A stretch of 64,000 nucleotides of DNA, taken from positions 287,563-351,562 of the forward strand of contig PHDD01000002.1 of NCBI GenBank assembly GCA_002840905.1, given 5' to 3'. Position 1 is the stretch's first letter, and every line of letters starts with the position of its first letter. The stretch is from Bacteroidetes bacterium HGW-Bacteroidetes-4 (GTDB taxonomy: Bacteria > Bacteroidota > Bacteroidia > Bacteroidales > SZUA-534). Positions 11,475 through 63,662 of the stretch are shown here, piece by piece. Made by a program: the position numbers and the translations under genes. The notes beneath the pieces are model-generated. The model did no database searches. It was not told the DNA's origin and saw only the letters and a program-made list of their open reading frames with translations.

Positions 11475-13163
11475 ATGATAAAACAAAACAAGAAGGGTTT
11501 AAATTTTTATATTATTGGTAAACTATTCTTGCTTTTCATAATCATGATTGCCTTTAAACCCCAACTTTTTCCCCAGCAAAAAAAAATACCGGTTTACTTT
11601 ACCAATAATCAGATAAAAAAAAGCAAACACCAAATAACCATTGACTCAATCGAACAATTAAACTCATTAATAAAGGAAATCCAAAATAAAAATATCGAAA
11701 AAGGCTTTTTGTCCTTCTCTGTCGATTCAATAATCAGGATGCCTTCGCAGATAATGGTTTACAGCAATCAAGGTGCGCAATTTTACTTCGGCAGGTTAAC
11801 ACTAAACGATTCCATTCAAGTAAACCAAGGCCGCATAAAACCCGGCAAACCCTTTTCCATCAAAGGAATGCATCAACTTGAAAAGCAACTACTTCAAAAT
11901 GTAAAAAACCAAGGTTTTCCGTTGGCTCACCTCAATAAGGAAACCCGTTTTGCCAACAGCTTAATTCATATAAAATACACCTTTGAAAAAGGAAATTATT
12001 ACGAATTCGACACGCTAAAACAGGTTGGAGAACACCCTATCAGCTTAAGTTATCTGGAACATAAAACCGGAATCAAACCCGGAAAAGCATACAATTCCTT
12101 ACTGTTAAACCAACTTACCGCAACAATTAATCGAACCGGATTTTTAAAACTCGACAGCCTTTCGGTAATTCATGAGAACAACCGCGCCAGGGTTTTATTA
12201 AAGATAGCGAAACACCAGCAAAATTCATTTTCAGGAATTTTAGGACTAATGACCAACGCAGAACTAAAAACCGAAATTACCGGCCAGGTTAATTTCAATT
12301 TGGTTAATTTATTTAAAAAAGGCGAAACCATCCGAATCGACTGGCAAAAATTCGCTTCCCAATCGCAGGATTTAAACGCCTTTTTAAAAGCACCCTATAT
12401 TTTTAAAACTCCGCTGGGATTACTTGCCGAAATAAAATTCTACAAACAGGATTCTTCCTATGCAAACACCGATTTGTTAGCCGGTTTGCTTATCGACCTG
12501 GGAAAAAATTGCGAATTGGCAGTAACTGCTCATAAGAACATTTCAACAACAACTTTAAGCTCAAACGATAATTATTTGAACAGCGAGAACCTGCTTTATG
12601 GCTTACGCGTTGAATACAATACCGTTAACAACAGGGCTAATCCCACTAAAGGAATTTTTTTTCAAGCATCGGTCGAAACAGGGAATAACACCCACAATAT
12701 CAACACTGAAAATCGATACAATTCGCTTTTTACCCAAGCTAATAGTCAGGCAATATATTTTATAAAAGTTCCGCTGGGAACATTAAAATTAAAGAACGAA
12801 ACCGCTCTGGTTATTAACGACTCGCTGTCATTGAATGCTTATCAGCGTCTGGGGGGATTCTCCGGTTTCAGGGGAGTAAACGAAAAAAGTATTTTTGCCC
12901 AAGCATTCAGTTTTTTCACTGTTGAATATCGCTTTGTTATAGGAGGTGAATCGTATGTTTACCTTTTTACCGATGCCGGTTGGTTTAACGAACCGCAAAC
13001 AATCAAGAACAAACTTATTGTGAGACAGGCTGCCGGTGCAGGAATAAACCTAAAAACAAAAGCAGGAACTGTTTCGGTAGCTTATGCGCTGGCAAACTCA
13101 TCGAACGAAACCTTCAATATTCAAAATGCCAAAATACACATTGGATACACCAACCGCTTTTAA
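11475..13163 (+). CDS. Omp85/BamA-like outer-membrane protein (surface antigen D15 family)
   Basis: 562 residues from the ATG at 11475; a TTG nine bases upstream would add three residues. A hydrophobic N-terminus (about 8-33, ending FPQQ) serves as signal sequence. The next 200 residues contain POTRA-like pieces (MHQLEKQLLQNVKNQGFPLA; YEFDTLKQVGEHPIS). The C-terminal part is a beta-barrel with the Omp85 loop-6 region GGFSGFRGVNE, where FRG stands in place of the usual VRGF/LRGY, followed by FFTVEYRFVIG and YVYLFTDAGWF. At this size it is smaller than BamA and resembles the TamA/ShlB-sized Bacteroidota paralogues. Its cargo is unknown. Confidence 0.8.
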   Translation: MIKQNKKGLNFYIIGKLFLLFIIMIAFKPQLFPQQKKIPVYFTNNQIKKSKHQITIDSIEQLNSLIKEIQNKNIEKGFLSFSVDSIIRMPSQIMVYSNQGAQFYFGRLTLNDSIQVNQGRIKPGKPFSIKGMHQLEKQLLQNVKNQGFPLAHLNKETRFANSLIHIKYTFEKGNYYEFDTLKQVGEHPISLSYLEHKTGIKPGKAYNSLLLNQLTATINRTGFLKLDSLSVIHENNRARVLLKIAKHQQNSFSGILGLMTNAELKTEITGQVNFNLVNLFKKGETIRIDWQKFASQSQDLNAFLKAPYIFKTPLGLLAEIKFYKQDSSYANTDLLAGLLIDLGKNCELAVTAHKNISTTTLSSNDNYLNSENLLYGLRVEYNTVNNRANPTKGIFFQASVETGNNTHNINTENRYNSLFTQANSQAIYFIKVPLGTLKLKNETALVINDSLSLNAYQRLGGFSGFRGVNEKSIFAQAFSFFTVEYRFVIGGESYVYLFTDAGWFNEPQTIKNKLIVRQAAGAGINLKTKAGTVSVAYALANSSNETFNIQNAKIHIGYTNRF

Positions 13164-44043: not shown

Positions 44044-44094
44044 TTCTTTATTAATACTGGATGTAAGATTATAAAAGATTAGATTTTTGAACCT

Positions 44095-44147
44095 GACAAC
44101 TGCCTGACATTAGTTTGGGAAGCCCAAACTAATGTCAGGCAGTTGTC
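44095..44147. repeat. Perfect 25-bp inverted repeat with 3-nt loop
   Basis: Left arm 44095-44119 (begins GACAACTGCC, ends TTTGGG), loop AAG (44120-44122), right arm 44123-44147, exact reverse complement; two further outer pairs (T-G and C-G) are possible. It lies 51 bases after the ABC transporter stop codon, between convergent genes. No T-tract follows on either strand, so it is not a classical terminator. Could be a REP-like or MITE-derived element, or an mRNA 3'-end stabiliser. Only one copy seen in this window. Confidence 0.9.
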
Positions 44148-44283
44148 GGCTAATTGTTAATTATTAAATGCAGATTGCTCACTGTTTAATGTTGTGCTCA
44201 GTATAATTTTAAGTAAAACATAAAATTCCTGAATCTATTCAATAAACAGGCCGGTTGAGAGAAGAAAACTGTGATAAAAACAG
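44148..44283. other. Intergenic DNA with no recognised element
   Basis: Between the long inverted repeat and the terminator at 44284. AT-rich, no ORF of note, no clear promoter; may be the 3' side of the ABC transporter transcript. Confidence 0.3.
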
Positions 44284-51610: not shown

Positions 51611-54600
51611 TTAGTTAAACTTATATCTTATGCCAATCTGAATACTCCATAAATCGGTATAAGAATACCTGGTTGAGAAGGTTTCGGTTGGATAAACATT
51701 GTTTCCATTTTCATCTTCAATCATTGGAACTGAGAAAACGGGTTCATTATTCCCATTTACTCCTTCGTATCTCAGAATTTGTCCATTATTGGCTGATGAC
51801 ATGTTTTTATAAGTTCCCCACTCGCTATTCAACATATTTCCAAAATTCAGAATGTCTAAACTAAGCTGAAGCGTGTTTAAACTCTTACCCGCTTTGATTT
51901 TGAAATCCTGTGCTAATCTAAGGTCTATGTTGCTAACCCAGGGTGCACGTACATCGTTAGCCCCCGCATATTCTCCTTTGTGCTTTTTCAGGTATTTATC
52001 CTGATCCATGAATTTAAAAAATGCATCTTCGTCGGCCTGGGTTGCAAAATTAATATCACCCCTACCTGTTGGAATGTAGATTAAATCGGTTCCCCATCCG
52101 TCACCGTTCATGTCGTTGGCATAGGTATAGCTATAACCAAGAGTTGCCCCGGTATAGAACATGCTAAAAGTAGTAGCCATCATGTTGTTAGCGTAGGGTA
52201 TGGTGTACGATAACGATGCTATAACTTTATTGGGAACAACATACTGTGATGTTTGTAAAGTTGGTAAATGAGGGCCATCTATAGCCAAAAGACCACCATA
52301 AGCTGAACCAGCATTACTACCCGGCATTCCAGTTATTTCCTTCGACATGGTATAAGTATAGGCTGCCATAAGATTCAGATTTTCAATAGGAGTTGCTGTC
52401 AAGGTAATGTTGGCAATAGTCGCCCAGCCTTCATTCGTATTTGACAAAACATATGCATTTCTATTATTGTATTTATAAGTAGTCGGATAGATGTATCTAT
52501 CGTCCGGGCCATTGAATCGCTGCCATGTTGCATCAGGCTCCATTAAGTCCCAGTTTTTCAGCATTACACCATTAATGGTTTTAGTAAAAATCCCTTCGAC
52601 AGTCGCTTGCATTGGAAAAGAAGCAGGAACCTGGTAATCGACAGCAGCGGATGTTTTCCATACCTGTGGCATTTTAAAGTCGGGGTCTACGCCATTAATG
52701 TCTCTTGGAAGAGCCCCATCCTCGGGAGTAACCGATCGTAATAAACCAAAAGGTTCTAATGCGTCAATCATGTCATCCACATTGGTTATCATTCCTCCAT
52801 TAAAAATGGAAAGGGCAGCATAGTTAGAGCCTGGAATAGGGGTATTGCCGTTTGCAGCATCATATCTTGTTGTTGCGGCAAAACTTCCCTGAACCATACC
52901 CGCATTGGTTGGCATATTGGTGAAGAACACTAAGGGCAAACGGCCTGTAAAAATACCAGTTCCTCCACGTACTTTAAGCGACTGGTCACCATTAACATCC
53001 CAGGTAAAACCTATACGGGGTGATAATAAAAGTTTTGGATCAGGCCATGTACCTACATCAATACTTCTTCCTCCAAAATCAAGAGCACTTATTGCATTGT
53101 TGCCCATAAGGTTATCGGCAAATTTAATAAGGTCGGCACGGAGCCCGTAAGTAAGTTTAATGTTATTAATAGTCCACTCATCCTGTGCATAGGCTCCATA
53201 CTGATTAAAAGCAACCTCGGCTGCTGGGTTTTCTTCCCCATCATAACCATAGGTCAACGCAAAATCAATGGGGGTTGCATCGTTAAGAAAATCTGATACA
53301 CTGGCATAGCGATAATATCCGGTACCATTGCGCATGTAGGCATTGTTAGCCATTTGATATTCAAAACTCAAACCACCAGTAAGCTTATGGTTGTTTAGGT
53401 TATAAGTAAAGTTGTCAGTAACGGTTAATACATTATTATGAACTCCGTTATTCCAGGTAAACAACTCATAACCAGCAGAAATATAAGGTTCAATGCTTGT
53501 GGGATAGGCATCGCCATAAAGAATATCAATAAAAGGAAATTTATCGGAAGTGGAACCACGCACATCATCTATTTTGGTATAGGTAACCAGTAACTGATTA
53601 TGAATTTTATCAGTAAAACGGCTGTTCAATTCAGCAGTGAATGAATTCACAATATTATCCATGGAATACAACGAATTGGCAAAAGCCATACCATATTGAG
53701 ATATTCTATCCATACTGCGGTTTCTATACCCGGCATCGGTTGAATTCCCGTTGGTTGGATTCCAAGCCTGATTTTTTGTATAGTTGTAACGAAGGTTAAG
53801 CCTGTTCCTGCTATTAATATTCCAGTCGATTCGGGCTAAAAGCTTTATGTTAGACTCGTCGCCAGGAAAATCGGTAAATGAACCAGCATCATATCCATAC
53901 CTGGTTTGCAAGTGGTTTTTTACTGCCTCCATATCGGCAATACTGGTACGCGAGATGGTTGCTCCGTCGCTAATTCCGTCAGTAGAAGCTTTCCAGGTAA
54001 CTACCTGACCGGGTTCTTTTTCCATTTCAGCATTTACAAAAAAGAATAATTTATTCTTGATGATTGGACCTCCAAGGGTAACTCCATAGGTGGTTTTTGA
54101 ATAGTCCTCGCGTTCACCAAAATCATAATCTCCAAGTTTGTTACCGCGCATACTTTGATTTCTAAAATAGCTATAAGCTGTTCCTTTTAAAGTGTTTGTA
54201 CCCGATTTAGTAATGGCATTGATACCGCCTCCAATAAAATTGGATTGACGTACGTCAAAAGGAGTAATTACAACCTGAACTTCTTCAATAGCTTCTAACG
54301 AGATGGGGTTTCCACCTCCTGGAAGATTCGAAGAAAGTCCAAAATTATTGTTAAAGTTTGCCCCATCAATTGTAAAATTTGTGGAACGTCCATCACTGCC
54401 TGAAAAACTCATGTTATTGGCATAGGGTGACAGGCGGGCAATATCAGAAATACTTCTGCTAATAGTAGGCATACGATCAAGATCCTGGTTCGAAATGTTG
54501 GTAGTAGCGCCTGTTTTATCAGATTGAAAAGCTGATCCTCTTTTCACAACTACAGTGATTTCTCCAACCTCCAGCGCACCTTCTTTAAGAGACAGATTTA

Positions 54601-54910
54601 GTACAAAATATTCTCCCAAATTTAAGGTAATGTCTGTAAATGTTTCTGTAGAATAACCTACAAATGAAACTTCAACTTTATACGGTCCTCCCGGACGTAA
54701 CCCCTGTAGGTCAAATAGACCTTCAACGTTGGTTGCTGTGCCATACTGCGTGCCCGAAGGCTCATGGATGGCCAAAATAGTTGCTCCTGGCAGGCCTTCA
54801 TTATCGGTGCCAATTACCCTTCCTTTAAGTCCGGAGGTAGTAACCTGTGCATAGCTTGTAAAAAGCATAACAAAGCAACTTAAAACTAAACTCAGTAGTG
54901 TTTTTTTCAT
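51611..54910 (-). CDS. TonB-dependent receptor, Oar-like, with N-terminal carboxypeptidase-regulatory-like domain
   Basis: 1099 residues. Signal peptide 1-21 (ends TSYAQ), carboxypeptidase-regulatory-like domain (about 28-115: LKGRVIGTDNEGLPGATI, GLFDLQGLRPGGPYKVEVSFVGY), plug domain (about 130-250: ISDIARLSPYANNMSF, GGGINAITKSGTNTLKGTAY), then a large barrel with many Asn/Tyr-rich strands and ending WSIQIGIRYKFN, a terminal Phe-Asn. The layout is that of Oar proteins, which secrete or import large substrates. It is the first gene of the right-end block; no neighbour SusD was found, so it is not a SusCD pair. Confidence 0.9.
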   Translation of the reverse strand: MKKTLLSLVLSCFVMLFTSYAQVTTSGLKGRVIGTDNEGLPGATILAIHEPSGTQYGTATNVEGLFDLQGLRPGGPYKVEVSFVGYSTETFTDITLNLGEYFVLNLSLKEGALEVGEITVVVKRGSAFQSDKTGATTNISNQDLDRMPTISRSISDIARLSPYANNMSFSGSDGRSTNFTIDGANFNNNFGLSSNLPGGGNPISLEAIEEVQVVITPFDVRQSNFIGGGINAITKSGTNTLKGTAYSYFRNQSMRGNKLGDYDFGEREDYSKTTYGVTLGGPIIKNKLFFFVNAEMEKEPGQVVTWKASTDGISDGATISRTSIADMEAVKNHLQTRYGYDAGSFTDFPGDESNIKLLARIDWNINSRNRLNLRYNYTKNQAWNPTNGNSTDAGYRNRSMDRISQYGMAFANSLYSMDNIVNSFTAELNSRFTDKIHNQLLVTYTKIDDVRGSTSDKFPFIDILYGDAYPTSIEPYISAGYELFTWNNGVHNNVLTVTDNFTYNLNNHKLTGGLSFEYQMANNAYMRNGTGYYRYASVSDFLNDATPIDFALTYGYDGEENPAAEVAFNQYGAYAQDEWTINNIKLTYGLRADLIKFADNLMGNNAISALDFGGRSIDVGTWPDPKLLLSPRIGFTWDVNGDQSLKVRGGTGIFTGRLPLVFFTNMPTNAGMVQGSFAATTRYDAANGNTPIPGSNYAALSIFNGGMITNVDDMIDALEPFGLLRSVTPEDGALPRDINGVDPDFKMPQVWKTSAAVDYQVPASFPMQATVEGIFTKTINGVMLKNWDLMEPDATWQRFNGPDDRYIYPTTYKYNNRNAYVLSNTNEGWATIANITLTATPIENLNLMAAYTYTMSKEITGMPGSNAGSAYGGLLAIDGPHLPTLQTSQYVVPNKVIASLSYTIPYANNMMATTFSMFYTGATLGYSYTYANDMNGDGWGTDLIYIPTGRGDINFATQADEDAFFKFMDQDKYLKKHKGEYAGANDVRAPWVSNIDLRLAQDFKIKAGKSLNTLQLSLDILNFGNMLNSEWGTYKNMSSANNGQILRYEGVNGNNEPVFSVPMIEDENGNNVYPTETFSTRYSYTDLWSIQIGIRYKFN

Positions 54911-55191
54911 TTTACTTCTAGATTGATTAATAATATATTAATGATTCTTTGTGAAAATAAAAGGTATATCTATTGTTTGCGTTATAAATTTAACACTAAT
55001 ATGTTAAAAAAAGGTTAAGGGCTATACGTGTTTTACATGCATGTTGATAAATTGTGTTAGCATAAATTCTCTATACTCCTATTATTAAGGACAAAAAAAA
55101 CGTAAAGAAATTGCTTGTTGATAACTAATAAAAGAAACCGTTAATCTTTTGTAAAAATCAACGGTTATAGTTTTTAGTTGGTTTTTATTTA
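54911..55191. other. Intergenic region between PLD gene terminator and receptor gene
   Basis: 281 bases, very AT-rich. Apart from the hairpin at 55136-55166 (below), no ORF or promoter of the -7 type was recognised. Upstream signals of the receptor gene must lie here. Confidence 0.4.
55136..55166 (-). terminator. Hairpin terminator after the phospholipase D-like gene
   Basis: Stem AACCGTT / AACGGTT plus an inner AT stem, and on the minus strand a TCTTTTATTAG tract follows. Located 25 bases after the stop of the PLD-like gene (55192). Confidence 0.6.
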
Positions 55192-57366
55192 CTAATACAC
55201 ACTTATTTTTTTAGTCATTTGTTTTGAGCCGGCAGTTACCATTATCAGGTAAATGCCCTTTTGAGAGAAGTTTAATTTGGCTTGTTTTCCATTTAAATGG
55301 ATGGTTTGAATCGATTTACCCATTACATCGAAGATATTAATTAAATAAGAGTCCGATTCGCCCATAAGAATATTTATCTGACCATTGGTCGGATTTGGAT
55401 ACAAACTGTAGTCGATTGTATTCGTTTTGTCCAAAATGTTGTTGTCAAGCAAATAGGCTTTTATTTTATTGTATTCGGCTGTAAATGCTTCAGCTATATC
55501 AATATTATAAATGAATAAAGTGTTTTCATCATTTTTGCTTTCAGCTGAGGCGGTCCAGTTGTGTGTGCCTGAAATCACCAGAGGATTTTCTGTACCTGCA
55601 TCTATAACACAAAACTTGTGGTGTAAAGTGCTTCCATTGGGCCAGCCAGATCCATCCGGATTTGCAAAATCATAAACTTCAACACCGCTGTTTTTCAAAT
55701 AATCGAATTCACTTCCCGAATATTCTATATAATCAATAATACCTTGTGTAGCAACACTTCTGTTGTGAGCTGTTACGATGGCATTTCCCAAAACATCTTC
55801 GGTAAAAGCCATCATGGCAAAACATATATTGCTTTCTGCATGTTCGATGGCTTTAGCAATTTTTTGGGTAGTGTTGTCCGATGGTGAAAAATACAATTCG
55901 ACCATGGAATTATTTATATTGAAATAATGGGGTGTGTTATCGGTTTTTGCCGCCCCAAATTTTGCATTTGAATTATCAGGGATTAACGAGGAACTTCCCC
56001 ACATTTCATTAAATTCCAATAAGTACGCTTTTGCCAACGATTGATCCTGGATGCAGATCATGTTATTAAAATCCATGTTTAGGTTGTTGTAAGTCCAGTT
56101 GGTAGAACCTGTTACAACCCATGCATGGGAGGCGCTGGCAGCATCAATTATTAAAAATTTATGGTGCATGATGCCCTCGGTATTTCCTTTGAGTACTGTA
56201 ATATTGGGATTCAGACTGTCTAAAGCCGGATTTAATACAGCATCGTCGGTAATAAATCGAATAGCGATGCCTTTGTTGTATTGATTGTTTATTGCTTGTA
56301 TAATTCGGTAATTGGAGCTGTCGCTTTGCGGGGCAAAATTGGTTAAATCGTAAAGGGCAATGTCTAAAGTGCTGGTAGCTTTATCAATGTAAAAAATAAT
56401 GGTATCTATAATCGCTCCACTTGCGGCACTTTTTGTTAGGATGTTAACCTGAGGGTCAGTAAAATAGGTTTTAATTTGGCCGCTCGATTCACTTTGGGTG
56501 ACATAAACTCCTTTATAAATGGGGGTAGTGTCGTTGGTGTTGTTCACAGCATAACAATTGGCATAGTAAATTGTACCCGCATCTAAATTTCTTAAATTTA
56601 TGGTATGTAGGGTACTACTCACTGTTGAAAATGCTTTTCCCATTTCAAGTGTGGTACTTAGTCCATATTCAACATAAGCCGAAGCATTTTCGTTGGTTTC
56701 CCAGCTTAAATCGAAACTGGTTTTTGTTATGTTTTCGGGTTTGGGATTTTCAACAAAATAAAGTGCTAAATCCTGAAAAATATCATCGGCATTCCGGGGC
56801 TCAATTTTATAGAACGAAAATGAATAATCAAGCGGACCGGTAATGGCATAAGAAACGTCCAAAATTGGAGTGTAAGCAATTCCCAAATCGTTTACAACAA
56901 TCGGACCTGTTCCGTCATTTACTTCCCATTCGCCATAACCTAAATCTACGTTGGTACATGTTGCATTACTCACTTTTATAAGTACACTTTCCCATTGTTC
57001 CTTATCGGTACCGGTGCTTATTAAAACCGGCTCAGGTAGCTTATTGCCTGATGAAAGAATTGTAAATGCAGTAATTGTTTTTAATTCGGTCATGTCGAAA
57101 TATTCATCAACAAGGCCGGTAAGTTGAACGCTGTCGCCCAAAGCGGGTTTATTTGTTTGATCATAAATATAAAGTCCAGACCAGGCTCCGTCGCCATCCT
57201 GAATAAAGTAGGAATTGCTGTAGATGGCGGTAACAATACCTTTTGTAGTTACTGTTTGGCCTTTAAACGGAGATGCCGGAGATTGGCCTTGAATTTGATA
57301 AATAGTTTGGGCATTAAGTTGTAGTGCAATTACAACACAGAAAAGGAGGATAATTAGTTTTTTCAT
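55192..57366 (-). CDS. Secreted phospholipase D-fold protein (two HKD motifs) with OB-fold, Fn3 and T9SS tail
   Basis: 724 residues. Signal peptide 1-19 (ends LQLNAQ), OB-fold module (about 20-190, KGQTVTTKGIVTAIYSNSYF, GDSVQLTGLVDEY), Fn3-like domain (about 205-290), then a PLD pair: HHKFLIIDAASASH near 400 and HHKFCVIDAGTENP near 583, each an HxKxxxxD motif, with GSTNWT and GTHNWT after them. The C-terminus (PNPTNGQINILMG ... GIYLIMVTAGSKQMTKKISVY) is a T9SS type A sorting domain. PLD-fold enzymes with two HKDs cut phosphodiesters; with the OB module and neighbours a nuclease (Nuc type) is likely. Confidence 0.88.
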   Translation of the reverse strand: MKKLIILLFCVVIALQLNAQTIYQIQGQSPASPFKGQTVTTKGIVTAIYSNSYFIQDGDGAWSGLYIYDQTNKPALGDSVQLTGLVDEYFDMTELKTITAFTILSSGNKLPEPVLISTGTDKEQWESVLIKVSNATCTNVDLGYGEWEVNDGTGPIVVNDLGIAYTPILDVSYAITGPLDYSFSFYKIEPRNADDIFQDLALYFVENPKPENITKTSFDLSWETNENASAYVEYGLSTTLEMGKAFSTVSSTLHTINLRNLDAGTIYYANCYAVNNTNDTTPIYKGVYVTQSESSGQIKTYFTDPQVNILTKSAASGAIIDTIIFYIDKATSTLDIALYDLTNFAPQSDSSNYRIIQAINNQYNKGIAIRFITDDAVLNPALDSLNPNITVLKGNTEGIMHHKFLIIDAASASHAWVVTGSTNWTYNNLNMDFNNMICIQDQSLAKAYLLEFNEMWGSSSLIPDNSNAKFGAAKTDNTPHYFNINNSMVELYFSPSDNTTQKIAKAIEHAESNICFAMMAFTEDVLGNAIVTAHNRSVATQGIIDYIEYSGSEFDYLKNSGVEVYDFANPDGSGWPNGSTLHHKFCVIDAGTENPLVISGTHNWTASAESKNDENTLFIYNIDIAEAFTAEYNKIKAYLLDNNILDKTNTIDYSLYPNPTNGQINILMGESDSYLINIFDVMGKSIQTIHLNGKQAKLNFSQKGIYLIMVTAGSKQMTKKISVY

Positions 57367-57408
57367 CAGAAATAGATTTTAATACAAACTAAATTATATT
57401 TTAAAAAC

Positions 57409-57439
57409 AAAAAGCACTCGTTTTATTGAGTGCCTTTTA
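57409..57439 (-). terminator. Hairpin terminator after the endonuclease I gene
   Basis: Stem GCACTC / GAGTGC extended by A-T pairs, loop of eight bases, T-run on the minus strand after it. Fifteen bases after the stop codon at 57454, it separates the endonuclease unit from the PLD gene. Confidence 0.72.
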
Positions 57440-57453
57440 AATTCTTTTCAGGT

Positions 57454-59619
57454 TTATTCAAGAATAATTTTACTGGTGTATTTCGTTTTATTATTATCAA
57501 TTTGGATAATATAATATCCTTTTGTTAAGTTGTTGCCCAGGTAAATCTGGTGGTTGTATTTTCCTTCAACTAAATGTTCCTGATGAATCACCCGTCCGTT
57601 AATATCAAACAAGCGAAAGATACTGTTTTGATTGGAGCGTTCATCTAAAGATATGGTTACCAAACCACGAGTTGGATTAGGAAAAAGTTCCAATGTTTTT
57701 ATGCTGCTTTCATTTTTTATTGAAGAAAAATTAGATGTAAAAGCAAAAGTTGCATTCTGAGTAATATTACCATATAAATCTTCAACTCCATTCACGGTCA
57801 ATGTGTATTCTTTCTGTTGAATACCACTTACTAACAAATAAACCTGAGTTGTTGGGTAATAATAGGCACCTATAATTGTTACTCCTTCGATAGAAAATGC
57901 TGAAGGAACCACAGAAGATTCTTTTATTTTTTCGTTAAACGAAACTTCGATATAGCTGGCATCAGTAACATTAACCGCAGCTATTACTGGTGCAGTAACA
58001 TCAACTCCTTGCTCAATCCAGCCAATATTATCGATAAGCAATTGGTAGGTGGTTTGATATTGGCTTACAACAGCCGTTACATCAACCGTTCCATTTGGAA
58101 TTCTCGTGCCACAAAGTCTGGAATTGAAACGCACATAAACAGTAATCGAATTTGTTCCATCCATAATAGTATAGGAACCTCCATCAGCTGGAATTAATAC
58201 GTCCGCATTTGAGAAGTTAACATCGCTAAGTTTTACTAACATCCCTTCGTAGCTTTCGTTTATTGCAGTGGCCGATAGTTCCATTGGAACCGGTGTTTCC
58301 TTGTGACCGTAATTGAAAACCATAGTTACTTCGCTAATTTCGGTAAGATTTTGGTATTCTACCACTTTACCGGTAACAGCCACAGAGTCACCAATTTTAC
58401 CCCTCCAGTTACTATAAACACATATTCCGGAGTATTTATCCCCGCTGGTAGTTTGCATGTAAAATGAATTATCCAGATTGGCTGTAACAATTCCAGCCAC
58501 GGTAACGGTTTGGTTAACCATGGGTGATGTATTTCCTGTTCCTTGAACGGCTGTAATTTCTGTTAAGTTTAATTCCGGGGCAACAACAAAAGTGTTATAC
58601 CAGACTTCACCAGTCGATGCAACAGTCTTTAAATAGACTAATTCATTTTCATTAAATCCTACTAATGAAAAAGTTGCTGTCAAGGTTTCTGTACCAGCAA
58701 AGTCAGCCACGTTTGTTTCGCTATTAAAGCTTTTTCCCCAATAAATTTTTGCCGTTGGGGAGCCCTCTGCAGCGGTAAGGTTTATCGATATTTCAACCTC
58801 TTCACCTGCTTTTGGAAATGTAGGAGTCATTGACACATTACTTATTTGAACTTGAGGTAAACTGCTGTTGTCCCAAATTAAATCGGCAAACTGTGGGTTA
58901 TCAATGAACGGGTTCCGGTTGAGTTGTGACTGAAAAACACGTTCGTTGCGTCGTCTTTCAAATTCAGTGGGAGGAAAGTCACGGTTCCATTGCAGTAAAG
59001 TCGAAAGTTTTCCATGCTCTGCCACATCTGTTGATGCCGTATTAATGGCATCAACCATTTTTAAATCCAACTCGCCATCGGTTCCCTCATAGCGAACTGC
59101 CATGTAGAAAATTGTGCGGGCAACAGCTCCCTTATCTCTGTCGGCAGGTTCAAAAGCCTCACCTAAGTAATAAGCATCTGCTTCTTCAATATAGGTACCT
59201 CCGGTAACTTCATCAAAGTCGGAGTTGCTTCGCAATACATTTACCGATGCATCAGCTGCATGTAAGTTGTGTGCATCTCCGTCCATAGGACGAATATCAA
59301 CAAAGTTCCCATGCGATTTAGCCCAAATGTGTTCACGATTGGTTTCATTACCACCTGTTCCCCATGATTCTTTACTTACCGATCGGTTGGTGTAAAATTG
59401 AATCAGGTTGTTTGTGTTATTTGGATCTTCTTCAGCATAATTTAATATATATTTTGCATCATTATAACTAAAGTCAACATGAGCTTTAATAATATGATGT
59501 AATGCTGTTTTTAATTCTTCCCCACTTTTATTTTCAGTTCCATTATAATAACCCGGCTTTTGGGCATGAATTGTTATGCTAAGGAATGCTAAAAATATAA
59601 TTAGATAGAGTTTTTTCAT
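57454..59619 (-). CDS. Secreted endonuclease I (NucM/EndA family) with OB-fold modules and T9SS tail
   Basis: 721 residues. Signal peptide 1-19 (ITIHAQ). Endonuclease I domain about 22-260 with the His-Me catalytic stretch NREHIWAKSHG (about 92-102) and DAHNLHAAD (about 110-118). A short immunoglobulin-like part (about 260-345) follows, then an OB-fold module (about 350-535, NQTVTVAGIVTANLDNSFYM, GDSVAVTGKVVEYQN), another beta domain (about 545-630), and a type A T9SS sorting domain (LFPNPTRGLVTISL ... KGYYIIQIDNN). Non-specific DNA/RNA degradation outside the cell is expected. It begins 16 bases after the TonB receptor gene, same transcript. Confidence 0.92.
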   Translation of the reverse strand: MKKLYLIIFLAFLSITIHAQKPGYYNGTENKSGEELKTALHHIIKAHVDFSYNDAKYILNYAEEDPNNTNNLIQFYTNRSVSKESWGTGGNETNREHIWAKSHGNFVDIRPMDGDAHNLHAADASVNVLRSNSDFDEVTGGTYIEEADAYYLGEAFEPADRDKGAVARTIFYMAVRYEGTDGELDLKMVDAINTASTDVAEHGKLSTLLQWNRDFPPTEFERRRNERVFQSQLNRNPFIDNPQFADLIWDNSSLPQVQISNVSMTPTFPKAGEEVEISINLTAAEGSPTAKIYWGKSFNSETNVADFAGTETLTATFSLVGFNENELVYLKTVASTGEVWYNTFVVAPELNLTEITAVQGTGNTSPMVNQTVTVAGIVTANLDNSFYMQTTSGDKYSGICVYSNWRGKIGDSVAVTGKVVEYQNLTEISEVTMVFNYGHKETPVPMELSATAINESYEGMLVKLSDVNFSNADVLIPADGGSYTIMDGTNSITVYVRFNSRLCGTRIPNGTVDVTAVVSQYQTTYQLLIDNIGWIEQGVDVTAPVIAAVNVTDASYIEVSFNEKIKESSVVPSAFSIEGVTIIGAYYYPTTQVYLLVSGIQQKEYTLTVNGVEDLYGNITQNATFAFTSNFSSIKNESSIKTLELFPNPTRGLVTISLDERSNQNSIFRLFDINGRVIHQEHLVEGKYNHQIYLGNNLTKGYYIIQIDNNKTKYTSKIILE

Positions 59620-59635
59620 CTTAACTGATTATGTA

Positions 59636-62281
59636 TTAAAAATACCACTGAATCGATACATTATACCTACGGCCAATTCCCATAAATACCGAAGCAGACC
59701 GCGCATCATTGGTGTTGAATTTTTGACCATTAAATTGATCATTGTTTTGTGCAGTGGCTATGTATTTTTCATCAAATGCATTTAAGATACTTCCTCTGAG
59801 TTGAAAGTTGTTTTTAAAAGCTTTAAATTTATATCCGGCATGGATATCAAAAAGAAGGTAACTGGGTATTTGCCATGATTCATCGGGTGAATCATCGGTT
59901 AAAGTGAAAGGATCGAATTGAGCAAAATAGCGATCAAAATAGGTGCCTCTGACTTTCAGGTAAAGCTTTTCAATAGGCTCATACCTAATTTCACCTGAAA
60001 ATTGAGTTTGGGCTGAATTTCCTACGTGTACACCAATGGCGTTGAAATATCTTTTTTGTACCAGGTTATTGTAATTGTCATAAATATAAACCGTGTCTTT
60101 GCTATTCCACTTCCAATCACCAATAGATATCAATCCCTGGAAATCTAATTGTTTGTTTATTTTGTATATAAAATCAAACTCAATCCCCTTGTGTAAAGCA
60201 TTCATTCCTTTAATATTTGCAGAATACTCTTCACCAGTTATTTCATCAGTTATTGTAACACCAGAATCTGCGGGTTTATTTTTCCAGATAGTATAATAAC
60301 TATTAACACTTGCGCTAAAAGCAGAGCTTTTATAGGAAAGACCTACCTCAGCAGCAATAATATTTTCATTATCAATGTTGTTCCAAAGCAAGTTGCTATA
60401 GTCATAAACATTATTGAAACGTGGCGCTTTATCAAGGTACCCTAAGTTAGCGAACACATTAAACCTATCTGTTAATAGAAAGTTAGCTCCTGATTTAATC
60501 GTGTAACCAGGTATATATTTCCAATCGGTTTCTTTTTTTGCGATACTAGCTTTTATGCCATAAAAATAGTCAATTCTTTTATACCCTGTTACAGAAGATG
60601 TTATATTCAAAAATGTATTAAACCTTCCTAAATCTAATTCTCCTAACAAAAATAAGCCTCCCCAGCGAACCAATCCATCGTTATGAAAGTTGTTTATGTC
60701 GCCTTTTTTTAATCTGAAATCTTGTAAAGGATATTGCTCAGCCCAGTTAACTTGGCTGCTATTATAAAAATCGGGTTGGGCATAATCTGCACCCAGCAAA
60801 TCATAAACTTCTTCATAGTGTTCTCCCTTATAACTTCTTAAATCGAGACCCCCAGAAATGTTTAATAAAGGTGTGGCTTTGTAATTTACAGTGGAAACCA
60901 ATCCATACCACATGTGTTCATTGCGAAGGTTACGCATGTAATTTGTTGCAATGCGCTCTGTGGGATGATAAAGCGGATTAGGATCGTTGCTTGTATTTCG
61001 ATCGTAAATACCCTGGAAATTCATTTGGCTCGTACTATCCATAGTAGGAGTTGCCTTTGCCCGAATACCTCCACCGCGACCTATTGACATGTATAAAATA
61101 TTCGAAATAAATAATTTATCATTAACAGTCCATGAATCTTTTAAAGTGAATTGTGGTTTATGGTATTTATTTACACGCTCATTAAAAGGTTCTCCATTCA
61201 AATTTCCCCAGTGTTGGTTGTATTGTAGCCCTTTGTCCCATTGACCTACGTAACCTGAATTGTCTAAATCGTTCTGCGTTACGCCCAGGTCTTTAGCGTA
61301 AGCTTCGTCATAAGCGGCAATGGGTAACTGGTATGAACGCTGTCCGTGGGATTGAGGCGCTCCAAAACCAGATAAAGAAAACAAGTGATTGCCTATTTTT
61401 TTATCCACTTTTAAATAGTAAAAGTAACCCTCTGTCCAGGTTTGATCCACCCAACCATTTCCTCTTTTATAGGAACCGGCTAATGATACTGACCAATTGT
61501 TTTTAAGTTTTCCGGTATTATAACCAAAAGTAGATCGCAGGTATCCATCCTGACCAACTTCCTGTTTAAATTCACCGCCTTTTTTATTGTCATAACCTTT
61601 GGTAATGATATTAATCGTTCCTCCTACTGAAGGTAAAGCCAGCTTAGATGCTCCCAAACCTCGTTGAACCTGAATGGAACGGGTCGCGATATCCAAACCA
61701 AACCAGTTTGACCAATAAACATGTCCGGTTTCCATATCGTTTACCGGAACTCCGTCTAAAAGTACACCCACGTTTCGGGAACTAAAACCACGTATGGTTA
61801 TTTGCGCATCACCATCGCCACCACCTTCCTGGGTAGCGTATACTCCGGGTGTTGAGTTAAGTATCATAGGAATATCCTGCGAGGCAAGATTTTCCTGTAA
61901 TTGCTTTGGCTCAATGTTGGTAAACGCAATAGGAGTTTTGCGGGCAATAGCTACATCAGCCACAACTCTAACTTCATCCAATACTATGGCATTAAGCTGA
62001 AAGTTAAGTTGAGTAGGTTGTTTAACGGTAACTGTTTTAGTTAATTTATCATACCCTACGTAGGACACCAATATATTGTAGGTGCCAGCTTCGATGGAAA
62101 AGTTATAATTTCCATCAAAATCAGTAACAACACCAACCCCATCTTTAAAAAGTATATTCACGCCAATTAAAGATTCACCTGTCGCTGCGTCAATAACTTT
62201 TCCTGTTATCGGAAGTTTTTGGGCAAAAGCCGATGTTGCAAAAACCAGGATGAGCAAGGTAAAAAATATGCGGTTTTTCAT
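59636..62281 (-). CDS. TonB-dependent receptor with carboxypeptidase-regulatory-like domain, partner of endonuclease I
   Basis: 881 residues. Signal peptide 1-20 (ATSAFAQ), carboxypeptidase-regulatory-like domain about 24-105 (ITGKVIDAATGESLIGVNI, NYNFSIEAGTYNILVSYVG), plug about 115-235 (IPMILNSTPGVYATQEGGGDGDAQITIRGF, GVPVNDMETGHVYW), then a barrel that ends YNVSIQWYF. No SusD gene nearby. It precedes the endonuclease I gene by 16 bases, so uptake of digestion products (oligonucleotides, nucleosides or phosphate-bearing pieces) is a reasonable inference; the substrate is not shown. Confidence 0.92.
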   Translation of the reverse strand: MKNRIFFTLLILVFATSAFAQKLPITGKVIDAATGESLIGVNILFKDGVGVVTDFDGNYNFSIEAGTYNILVSYVGYDKLTKTVTVKQPTQLNFQLNAIVLDEVRVVADVAIARKTPIAFTNIEPKQLQENLASQDIPMILNSTPGVYATQEGGGDGDAQITIRGFSSRNVGVLLDGVPVNDMETGHVYWSNWFGLDIATRSIQVQRGLGASKLALPSVGGTINIITKGYDNKKGGEFKQEVGQDGYLRSTFGYNTGKLKNNWSVSLAGSYKRGNGWVDQTWTEGYFYYLKVDKKIGNHLFSLSGFGAPQSHGQRSYQLPIAAYDEAYAKDLGVTQNDLDNSGYVGQWDKGLQYNQHWGNLNGEPFNERVNKYHKPQFTLKDSWTVNDKLFISNILYMSIGRGGGIRAKATPTMDSTSQMNFQGIYDRNTSNDPNPLYHPTERIATNYMRNLRNEHMWYGLVSTVNYKATPLLNISGGLDLRSYKGEHYEEVYDLLGADYAQPDFYNSSQVNWAEQYPLQDFRLKKGDINNFHNDGLVRWGGLFLLGELDLGRFNTFLNITSSVTGYKRIDYFYGIKASIAKKETDWKYIPGYTIKSGANFLLTDRFNVFANLGYLDKAPRFNNVYDYSNLLWNNIDNENIIAAEVGLSYKSSAFSASVNSYYTIWKNKPADSGVTITDEITGEEYSANIKGMNALHKGIEFDFIYKINKQLDFQGLISIGDWKWNSKDTVYIYDNYNNLVQKRYFNAIGVHVGNSAQTQFSGEIRYEPIEKLYLKVRGTYFDRYFAQFDPFTLTDDSPDESWQIPSYLLFDIHAGYKFKAFKNNFQLRGSILNAFDEKYIATAQNNDQFNGQKFNTNDARSASVFMGIGRRYNVSIQWYF

Positions 62282-62322
62282 TTTTGAGTATTTTTCGAAC
62301 TAAATTTAAGTATGGTATAAAA

Positions 62323-62355
62323 GATAAAACTTAGCCGATTAAGCTAAGTTTTATC
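62323..62355 (-). terminator. Strong terminator after the lamin-tail protein gene
   Basis: Perfect 13-bp stem GATAAAACTTAGC / GCTAAGTTTTATC with a 7-nt loop and a T-rich tract on the minus strand after it. Eighteen bases after the stop codon at 62373 and 42 before the TonB receptor ATG. Confidence 0.88.
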
Positions 62356-62372
62356 CTAATGTGAATGGTTTA

Positions 62373-63662
62373 TTATTTTAAAATTACTTTCTGTACAGCA
62401 ACAGAATTGTCTTCCATTTCTACGACAATAACATAAACTCCTTTTGCTGTTTCTGAGATATTTGCTGCATAGGTGTTTGAACCAATTAGCTTAGCGCTAA
62501 AAACTTCCTGTCCTAAAAGGTTTGTTAGTTTAACGGTAGCAATTCTTTTGTTAGCAGTGATATTAATATTATTATCATTAACCGGATTTGGCCATACAGA
62601 GATGGTGCTCTCTGATTGCTTTTCTTTAACGCCGATCTCAATATCAACCAATACCCGAACTAACACTTCATTTGTTTGTGAGAAACCATCCGTAGCAACT
62701 ACTTTAATATCAAAGGTGTCTTTAATGGCAGGATCTAAGCCAGATTTGTCAACCAATGTCAGTTTTCCATCAGTTTTTCCAATTGCAAAAGGCTCTATCC
62801 TAAGATCATTAATATAAACAAAGTTTCCGTAATTAATATAATATTTGACGGCATCTCCTTCATTATCCGTGCTGGTAATGGTGCCAATTTCCAATCCGTT
62901 TTCTGAATCGCTGCTAATTGAATACAGGTATTGAGTTTGCCCAAATACTGGGGTCTCGTTTGTAGGAGCCACATCACTCTTATGCCATCCTAAGGTATAA
63001 AATGTGTTTGCGGGTAAAGTATCCCAAGCAGCTAAAGGATTCCAAATGGTAGGGTTCGTTGTTACTCCTGATACTACAGCTGGTTTTTTAATCATGGTGT
63101 GTTCTGCAGTTATACCAACGCCACTTCCATCAAAATAAGGAGCTGTATTGGTCCAGCATCTTAACACCACTGTTGAACCTCCAACAGTAGCTTCTGCAGG
63201 TCTGGGTGCACCCCAGCGACCAAAGATGTCTACTACAGTTCCATTTGTTTTTTCAAGTGTAACGGCATCATCACCATTAAAATACATTGCTTTGCTTGTA
63301 TTGTAATCGGGACAAAGAAACACATCAGCTCTTTCGGCTAATTGTTTCCAAACAGGAGCTTCTTGGCCTTCTCCGGCAGGATCTCTTTTATCCAAAACTA
63401 CTACGTATGATTTGTATGCTTCCAATGAGAAATCAGGCAAAGCTATGGTCCACTGAGCATCAGCCGGAGGAACATCGGTTCCATTTGAATAGCGTGTAAT
63501 GCGATAAGCGCTTAGGTTTATCGCAGCGTTTGTGGGATTATAAATTTCGAGCGCTTTGTTGTTCGACCAACCTTCAACCATTTCCGAAATGATAAGGTCG
63601 GTTTGGGCTTTTGCACTAATGATAAGTGCTACAAAGGATAGAATAAGTAAAAGTTTTTTCAT
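62373..63662 (-). CDS. Secreted lamin-tail and cadherin-domain protein with T9SS tail
   Basis: 429 residues. Signal peptide 1-19 (ISAKAQ). Lamin-tail domain about 22-230: DLIISEMVEGWSNNKALEIYNP, GDDAVTLEKTNGTVVDIFG, and the HTMIKKPAVVSGVTTNP strand. A cadherin-like repeat about 240-345 (TPVFGQTQYLYSISSDSENG, STDNEGDAVKYYIN, KDTFDIKVVATDGF) follows, then a type A T9SS sorting domain from about 355 (VWPNPVNDNNINI ... KGVYVIVVEMEDNSVAVQKVILK). Such lamin-tail proteins are common partners of secreted nucleases in this phylum and may hold nucleic acid or cell-surface matter; no enzyme site is seen. Confidence 0.9.
   Translation of the reverse strand: MKKLLLILSFVALIISAKAQTDLIISEMVEGWSNNKALEIYNPTNAAINLSAYRITRYSNGTDVPPADAQWTIALPDFSLEAYKSYVVVLDKRDPAGEGQEAPVWKQLAERADVFLCPDYNTSKAMYFNGDDAVTLEKTNGTVVDIFGRWGAPRPAEATVGGSTVVLRCWTNTAPYFDGSGVGITAEHTMIKKPAVVSGVTTNPTIWNPLAAWDTLPANTFYTLGWHKSDVAPTNETPVFGQTQYLYSISSDSENGLEIGTITSTDNEGDAVKYYINYGNFVYINDLRIEPFAIGKTDGKLTLVDKSGLDPAIKDTFDIKVVATDGFSQTNEVLVRVLVDIEIGVKEKQSESTISVWPNPVNDNNINITANKRIATVKLTNLLGQEVFSAKLIGSNTYAANISETAKGVYVIVVEMEDNSVAVQKVILK

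Follow-up and report, generated by a model that had tools for sequence, protein, structure and literature searches.

In Riemerella anatipestifer, natural transformation requires an operon (RA0C_RS04915/RS04920) that encodes an outer-membrane protein with a carboxypeptidase-regulatory domain and a DUF5689-DUF5017 protein, and a markerless mutant of either gene transforms at a level below detection (PMC8459023). Transformation is also reduced in the absence of tonBA or tonBB (PMC8383284), an effect that may be caused by iron supply. In Flavobacterium johnsoniae, phosphate depletion induces Fjoh_4721 and Fjoh_4723 (EndA1/EndA2) by 4 to 4.7 log2 units; their secreted products combine fn3 with LTD and endonuclease I domains and are associated with phosphate scavenging (PMC8115612). 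The two genes are classed as orphans, with no receptor, and in the PUS loci of the same species the TonB receptors are SusCD-like pairs or other TonB transporters, alongside phosphatases (PMC8115612). In the DNA-degradation loci of Ca. Izemoplasmatales, genes for extracellular nucleases lie together with those for importers and for an LTD protein that binds nucleic acid; these cells have no outer membrane, and the importers are ABC transporters (PMC8289736). The exported DNases ExeM/NucH combine LTD and OB-like regions with an endonuclease/exonuclease/phosphatase catalytic domain in a single protein, with no receptor.

The locus described here resembles each of these in part. Like the R. anatipestifer pair, it has an outer-membrane barrel with a carboxypeptidase-regulatory domain adjoining a DUF5689 surface protein, but that pair lacks an LTD gene and a nuclease domain, and has DUF5017 where the module has endonuclease I or PLD. 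It shares secreted endonuclease I and LTD with the F. johnsoniae genes, but has a receptor beside them, and it shares co-located nucleases, LTD protein and importer with Ca. Izemoplasmatales, the importer being a TonB receptor. A literature search, in which subscription journals were thinly covered, did not find such a locus described in Bacteroidota. The design itself, a surface enzyme with a TonB receptor, is known, and the module is a variant on it.

Five minus-strand genes occupy this part of the window (the whole stretch of DNA analysed, 64,000 nucleotides), and the ORF list and Pfam searches agree with the original prediction in their coordinates, domains and order. The features, all on the minus strand, are as follows:

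62373-63662, minus: LTD protein, 429 aa, with signal peptide (Pfam LTD and Por_Secre_tail)
63219-63614, 62640-62969 and 62382-62597, minus: lamin tail domain, cadherin-like domain and T9SS type A tail of the LTD protein
62321-62357, minus: hairpin between the LTD and receptor genes, terminator- or attenuator-like (-18.7 kcal/mol, z -5.7)
59636-62281, minus: TonB-dependent receptor TBDR1, 881 aa (Pfam CarbopepD_reg_2 and Plug; nuclease-linked clade, support 100/100)
61964-62209 and 61631-61942, minus: CarbopepD_reg_2 domain and plug of TBDR1, the other part being the barrel
57454-59619, minus: exported endonuclease I, 721 aa (Pfam Endonuclease_1, 1.1e-35, with DUF5689, Big_5 and Por_Secre_tail)
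58894-59523, minus: catalytic domain of endonuclease I
59329-59337, minus: R95-E96-H97 of endonuclease I, the presumed general-base motif (invariant in 21 of 21 aligned proteins)
58303-58569 and 58000-58293, minus: two OB folds (DUF5689-like) of endonuclease I
57718-57996 and 57463-57687, minus: Ig-like domain and T9SS tail of endonuclease I
57408-57439, minus: terminator-like hairpin 3′ of endonuclease I (z -3.5)
55192-57366, minus: exported PLD-fold protein, 724 aa (two Pfam PLDc_2 stretches and Por_Secre_tail)
56767-57312, minus: N-terminal OB/DUF5689-like region of the PLD protein
56143-56166 and 55600-55623, minus: HKD motifs of the PLD protein
55198-55404, minus: T9SS tail of the PLD protein
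55136-55166, minus: terminator-like hairpin 3′ of the PLD gene (z -4.3)
51611-54910, minus: Oar-like receptor, 1099 aa (Pfam OMP_b-brl_4 and CarboxypepD_reg), adjacent and judged to lie outside the module

The type A T9SS tails expected on three of the five proteins score 41.1, 47.6 and 46.8 bits against the Pfam Por_Secre_tail cut-off of 27, 16 bases separate the receptor stop from the start of endonuclease I, as proposed, and both HKD motifs of the PLD-fold protein are intact (residues 401-408 and 582-589). The cadherin assignment within the LTD protein is backed by a predicted structure of residues 232-341 (Z 14.7, rmsd 2.1 over 105). Pfam scans of the five proteins found neither SusD nor any carbohydrate-enzyme family, so that the locus falls outside the SusCD polysaccharide utilization loci, as had been anticipated, while sharing their logic of surface enzyme and TonB receptor.

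Strong hairpins follow the LTD, endonuclease I, PLD and Oar genes (z -4.7 for the last), so there are probably four transcription units, namely LTD, receptor-endonuclease I, PLD and Oar, and a single transcript for all five genes is unlikely. The hairpins were identified by folding the four intergenic stretches, because promoter and terminator consensus scans of the whole region gave site numbers no higher than in shuffles. Elsewhere in the window (44094-44148), the sequence TGTCAGGCAGTTGTC is present in inverted orientation at 44094-44109 (minus) and 44133-44148 (plus) between converging genes, perhaps as a shared terminator.

The closest receptors in 60 related genomes (43-71% identical) have an LTD gene upstream and an exported nuclease downstream. 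A profile built from eight such receptors was used alone as the query over 84,980 genomes, and the best 80 loci (L061-L140) were analysed; the nuclease and LTD genes thus had no part in the search. An exported nuclease is the next gene after the receptor in 70 of the 74 loci where this position is visible, and in a further nine of nine, the median gap being 19.5 bases. LTD lies upstream of the receptor in 68 of 73 visible loci and in a further eight of eight. Among control receptors from other clades of the same family, a nuclease was the next gene in none of 49 (35 visible receptors in or near the lipoprotein-linked clade, plus 14 from the competence-type clade), and LTD was upstream in none of 51. 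The linkage of receptor, nuclease and LTD is far beyond chance, and the association of nuclease and receptor, on which the original prediction stood or fell, is present. Receptors whose family-profile score lies below about 820 bits do not have a nuclease as the next gene; endonuclease I is found two or three genes away from such lower-scoring receptors in L046, L051, L200 and L206.

Two of the four loci without an adjacent nuclease end at contig boundaries, and in the other two (L095, at 11871-12761, and L116) the receptor is followed by an exported protein of about 297 aa that consists of the DUF5689-like region alone, without a nuclease domain. Locus L067 also has LTD, beyond the 68 of 73, running into the receptor via an apparent frameshift. 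A fusion of LTD and receptor was considered for this locus and rejected as read-through, since a second signal peptide comes after an incomplete T9SS tail within the ORF.

The PLD gene is likewise the fourth gene in L062, L066, L036 and L037. The Oar-like receptor, included in the locus by the original prediction, does not belong to it: none of the 31 related loci in which 5 kb or more is visible on both sides has an Oar homologue. The first proposal, that exported nucleases linked to a TonB receptor would act on external nucleic acid, has good comparative support once the Oar receptor is left out.

By taxonomy, the 80 top loci are spread over Bacteroidales, Flavobacteriales, Marinilabiliales, Prolixibacteraceae, Saprospirales and bins labelled Chlorobiota. 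Most are environmental metagenome bins, and some of these are close relatives of one another. The module stands beside a GT2 glycosyltransferase in 44 and a dihydroorotase gene in 39 of the 80. This placement recurs in several orders and suggests an old chromosomal position; the window's copy lies elsewhere. An Exo_endo_phos_3 gene is near the module in 15 of 80 loci. Secreted DNases of the ExeM type often target biofilm or extracellular traps, and the enzymes could accordingly clear biofilm, trap or phage DNA, protecting the cell or dispersing the biofilm, with the receptor taking up a metal or cofactor or anchoring the complex. This is improbable given that the receptor is the constant partner, with a nuclease next to it in 79 of 83 loci at a short gap, and that the carriers are mostly environmental bins.

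The 70 next-gene nucleases are of two types, 44 with the PLD fold and 26 with endonuclease I. The type changes 10 times on a tree of 78 receptors, and at least nine of these changes are forced by well-supported branches. For example, endonuclease I follows the window's receptor, and a PLD enzyme follows the 71% identical receptor of a congener (G001/L035). Because the endonuclease I and PLD folds are unrelated, a shared substrate, probably nucleic acid, would be the simplest reason for their exchange. The catalytic residues are intact in both. The window's endonuclease I matches PF04231 at 123.9 bits (cut-off 25), with REH and N127 invariant in 21 of 21 aligned proteins, while both HKD motifs (HxKx4D) are invariant in 49 of 49 PLD proteins. 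In some Flavobacteriales (L093, L119, L129, L135 and L139), the usual endonuclease I is replaced by a divergent form of 713 aa with the catalytic domain near its C-terminus. A DUF5689-like region is carried by nearly all module nucleases, the exception being this divergent group.

PLD-fold enzymes can act on lipids, which counts against a nucleic-acid substrate for the module. The locus might then scavenge phospholipids or other phosphodiesters, with the PLD enzymes cleaving lipids or teichoic-type phosphodiesters and endonuclease I being incidental. PLD is indeed the commoner partner (44 of 70), and solved relatives include a protein named mitochondrial cardiolipin hydrolase. Such a role is very unlikely, as endonuclease I substitutes for PLD beside receptors of the same clade and with the same OB region, and the NCBIfam matches of the window's PLD protein are to nuclease NucT (below threshold) and ExeM/NucH.

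Residues 245-640 of endonuclease I were modelled at a pLDDT of 86.5, and the model shows two OB folds (model residues 107-195 and 199-296) flanked by Ig-like domains. The first matches Stn1/Ten1 of CST (6w6w_D, Z 10.8), RPA (8oej, Z 8.8) and the HIN domains of p204, IFI16 and murine relatives (5z7d, 2oq0, 4jbm; Z 9.2-10.0), and the second matches Teb1 (3u58, Z 9.5). The plain OB protein YgiW matches as well as HIN (Z 10.3), so the modelled fold suggests, but does not prove, that endonuclease I binds nucleic acid through these domains; both OB and LTD domains also exist without this activity. The LTD region of the first gene and, in both nucleases, the OB regions align to ExeM/NucH in its N-terminal parts only, scoring 43.8 and 31.4 bits against a whole-protein threshold of 300, and 64.6 against 1300. 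In make-up, the module is like an ExeM split between an LTD gene and an OB-nuclease gene, with a different catalytic domain and with the addition of a receptor.

The locus is probably a surface module of LTD protein, receptor and OB-fold nuclease, here joined by a second, PLD-type nuclease, that binds extracellular nucleic acid, cuts it and imports the fragments. The LTD protein and nucleases, judging from their tails, would leave the cell by the type IX system and then stay attached to its surface or be released. The OB folds would bind nucleic acid, perhaps with help from the LTD protein, and set the nuclease beside the receptor, the polymer would be cut by endonuclease I or the PLD enzyme, and the oligonucleotides would be imported by the receptor under TonB. 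Periplasmic enzymes, such as the 5′-nucleotidase encoded in the window's genome, could complete the breakdown to phosphate and nucleosides. A nuclease adjoining a receptor is no proof that the receptor imports its products, and nuclease-linked receptors are rare across the phylum: in a sample of 392 genomes, the wider receptor family was found in 81 and nuclease-linked members in about three.

Phosphate or nucleoside nutrition is a reasonable inference for the role of the module. Two observations weigh against it. The search for a Pho box, suggested as a check, gave no excess, with 11 matches to an E. coli-type box (the Bacteroidota box is not well defined) against 18 expected from shuffles, and no CNT-type nucleoside transporter was found in the window's genome. 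Aligned upstream regions shared no motif. Also encoded in the window's genome is an exported protein of 1,085 aa, similar to Fjoh_4721/4723, that combines endonuclease I, LTD, fn3 and GEVED domains (contig C20, L058:5820-9077). On contig C2 of this genome (L145:4301-11248), a long LTD/DUF5689 repeat protein is spread over three overlapping ORFs, probably because of a frameshift or misassembly.

Receptor-DUF5689 neighbours of the R. anatipestifer make-up occur in sampled Flavobacteriaceae and relatives. In two trees, these DUF5689-paired receptors form one clade and the window's nuclease-linked receptors another; a lipoprotein-linked clade is sister to the latter, and the DUF5689-paired clade is next nearest. 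The three clades together are set apart from eight other receptors of the window's genome (support 100/100). The competence-type clade was identified by gene arrangement and domains, since the tree does not contain the R. anatipestifer sequences themselves. Genome-wide searches showed that the homology of the DUF5689-paired receptors reaches into the barrel, whereas most other receptors match in the N-terminal 180 residues only. Among close relatives of the window's receptor, no siderophore or peptide receptor with a known substrate was found.

This kinship raises the alternative of a natural-transformation apparatus, in which the receptor passes long DNA over the outer membrane for recombination via ComEC and the nuclease trims it. 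The wider clade (100/100) includes TonB-dependent receptors adjoining DUF5689 proteins, the genetic signature of the R. anatipestifer pair, and no separate receptor-DUF5689 pair was found in the window's genome. That genome has ComEC, which says little because ComEC is present in 10 of 14 control genomes. The nuclease-linked receptors, however, form their own clade apart from the competence type, the window's partner protein joins DUF5689 to Endonuclease_1, and an exported nuclease with intact catalytic residues would destroy transforming DNA, making this role unlikely. Under the preferred reading of a module for using extracellular nucleic acid, the receptor can tentatively be seen as a nutritional cousin of the natural-transformation receptor of Bacteroidota, driven by TonB and importing nucleic-acid polymers or oligonucleotides. 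An ancestral receptor-DUF5689 pair might then have given rise to a recombination branch and a food branch with exchangeable nuclease domains.

The conserved receptor-nuclease module without SusD provides a named candidate importer for nucleic acid across the outer membrane of Bacteroidota, of relevance to both nutrition and natural transformation. If this is correct, nucleic acid would join the polymers taken up by Bacteroidota via dedicated TonB loci, and the module would be a marker for DNA-consuming lineages of sediment and marine habitats.

The partners of sister-clade receptors (L041, L044, L047, L048, L050 and L051) are repetitive lipoproteins about 380-690 aa long, with no Pfam match in those scanned. 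In L206, the gene order is receptor, repetitive lipoprotein, endonuclease I.
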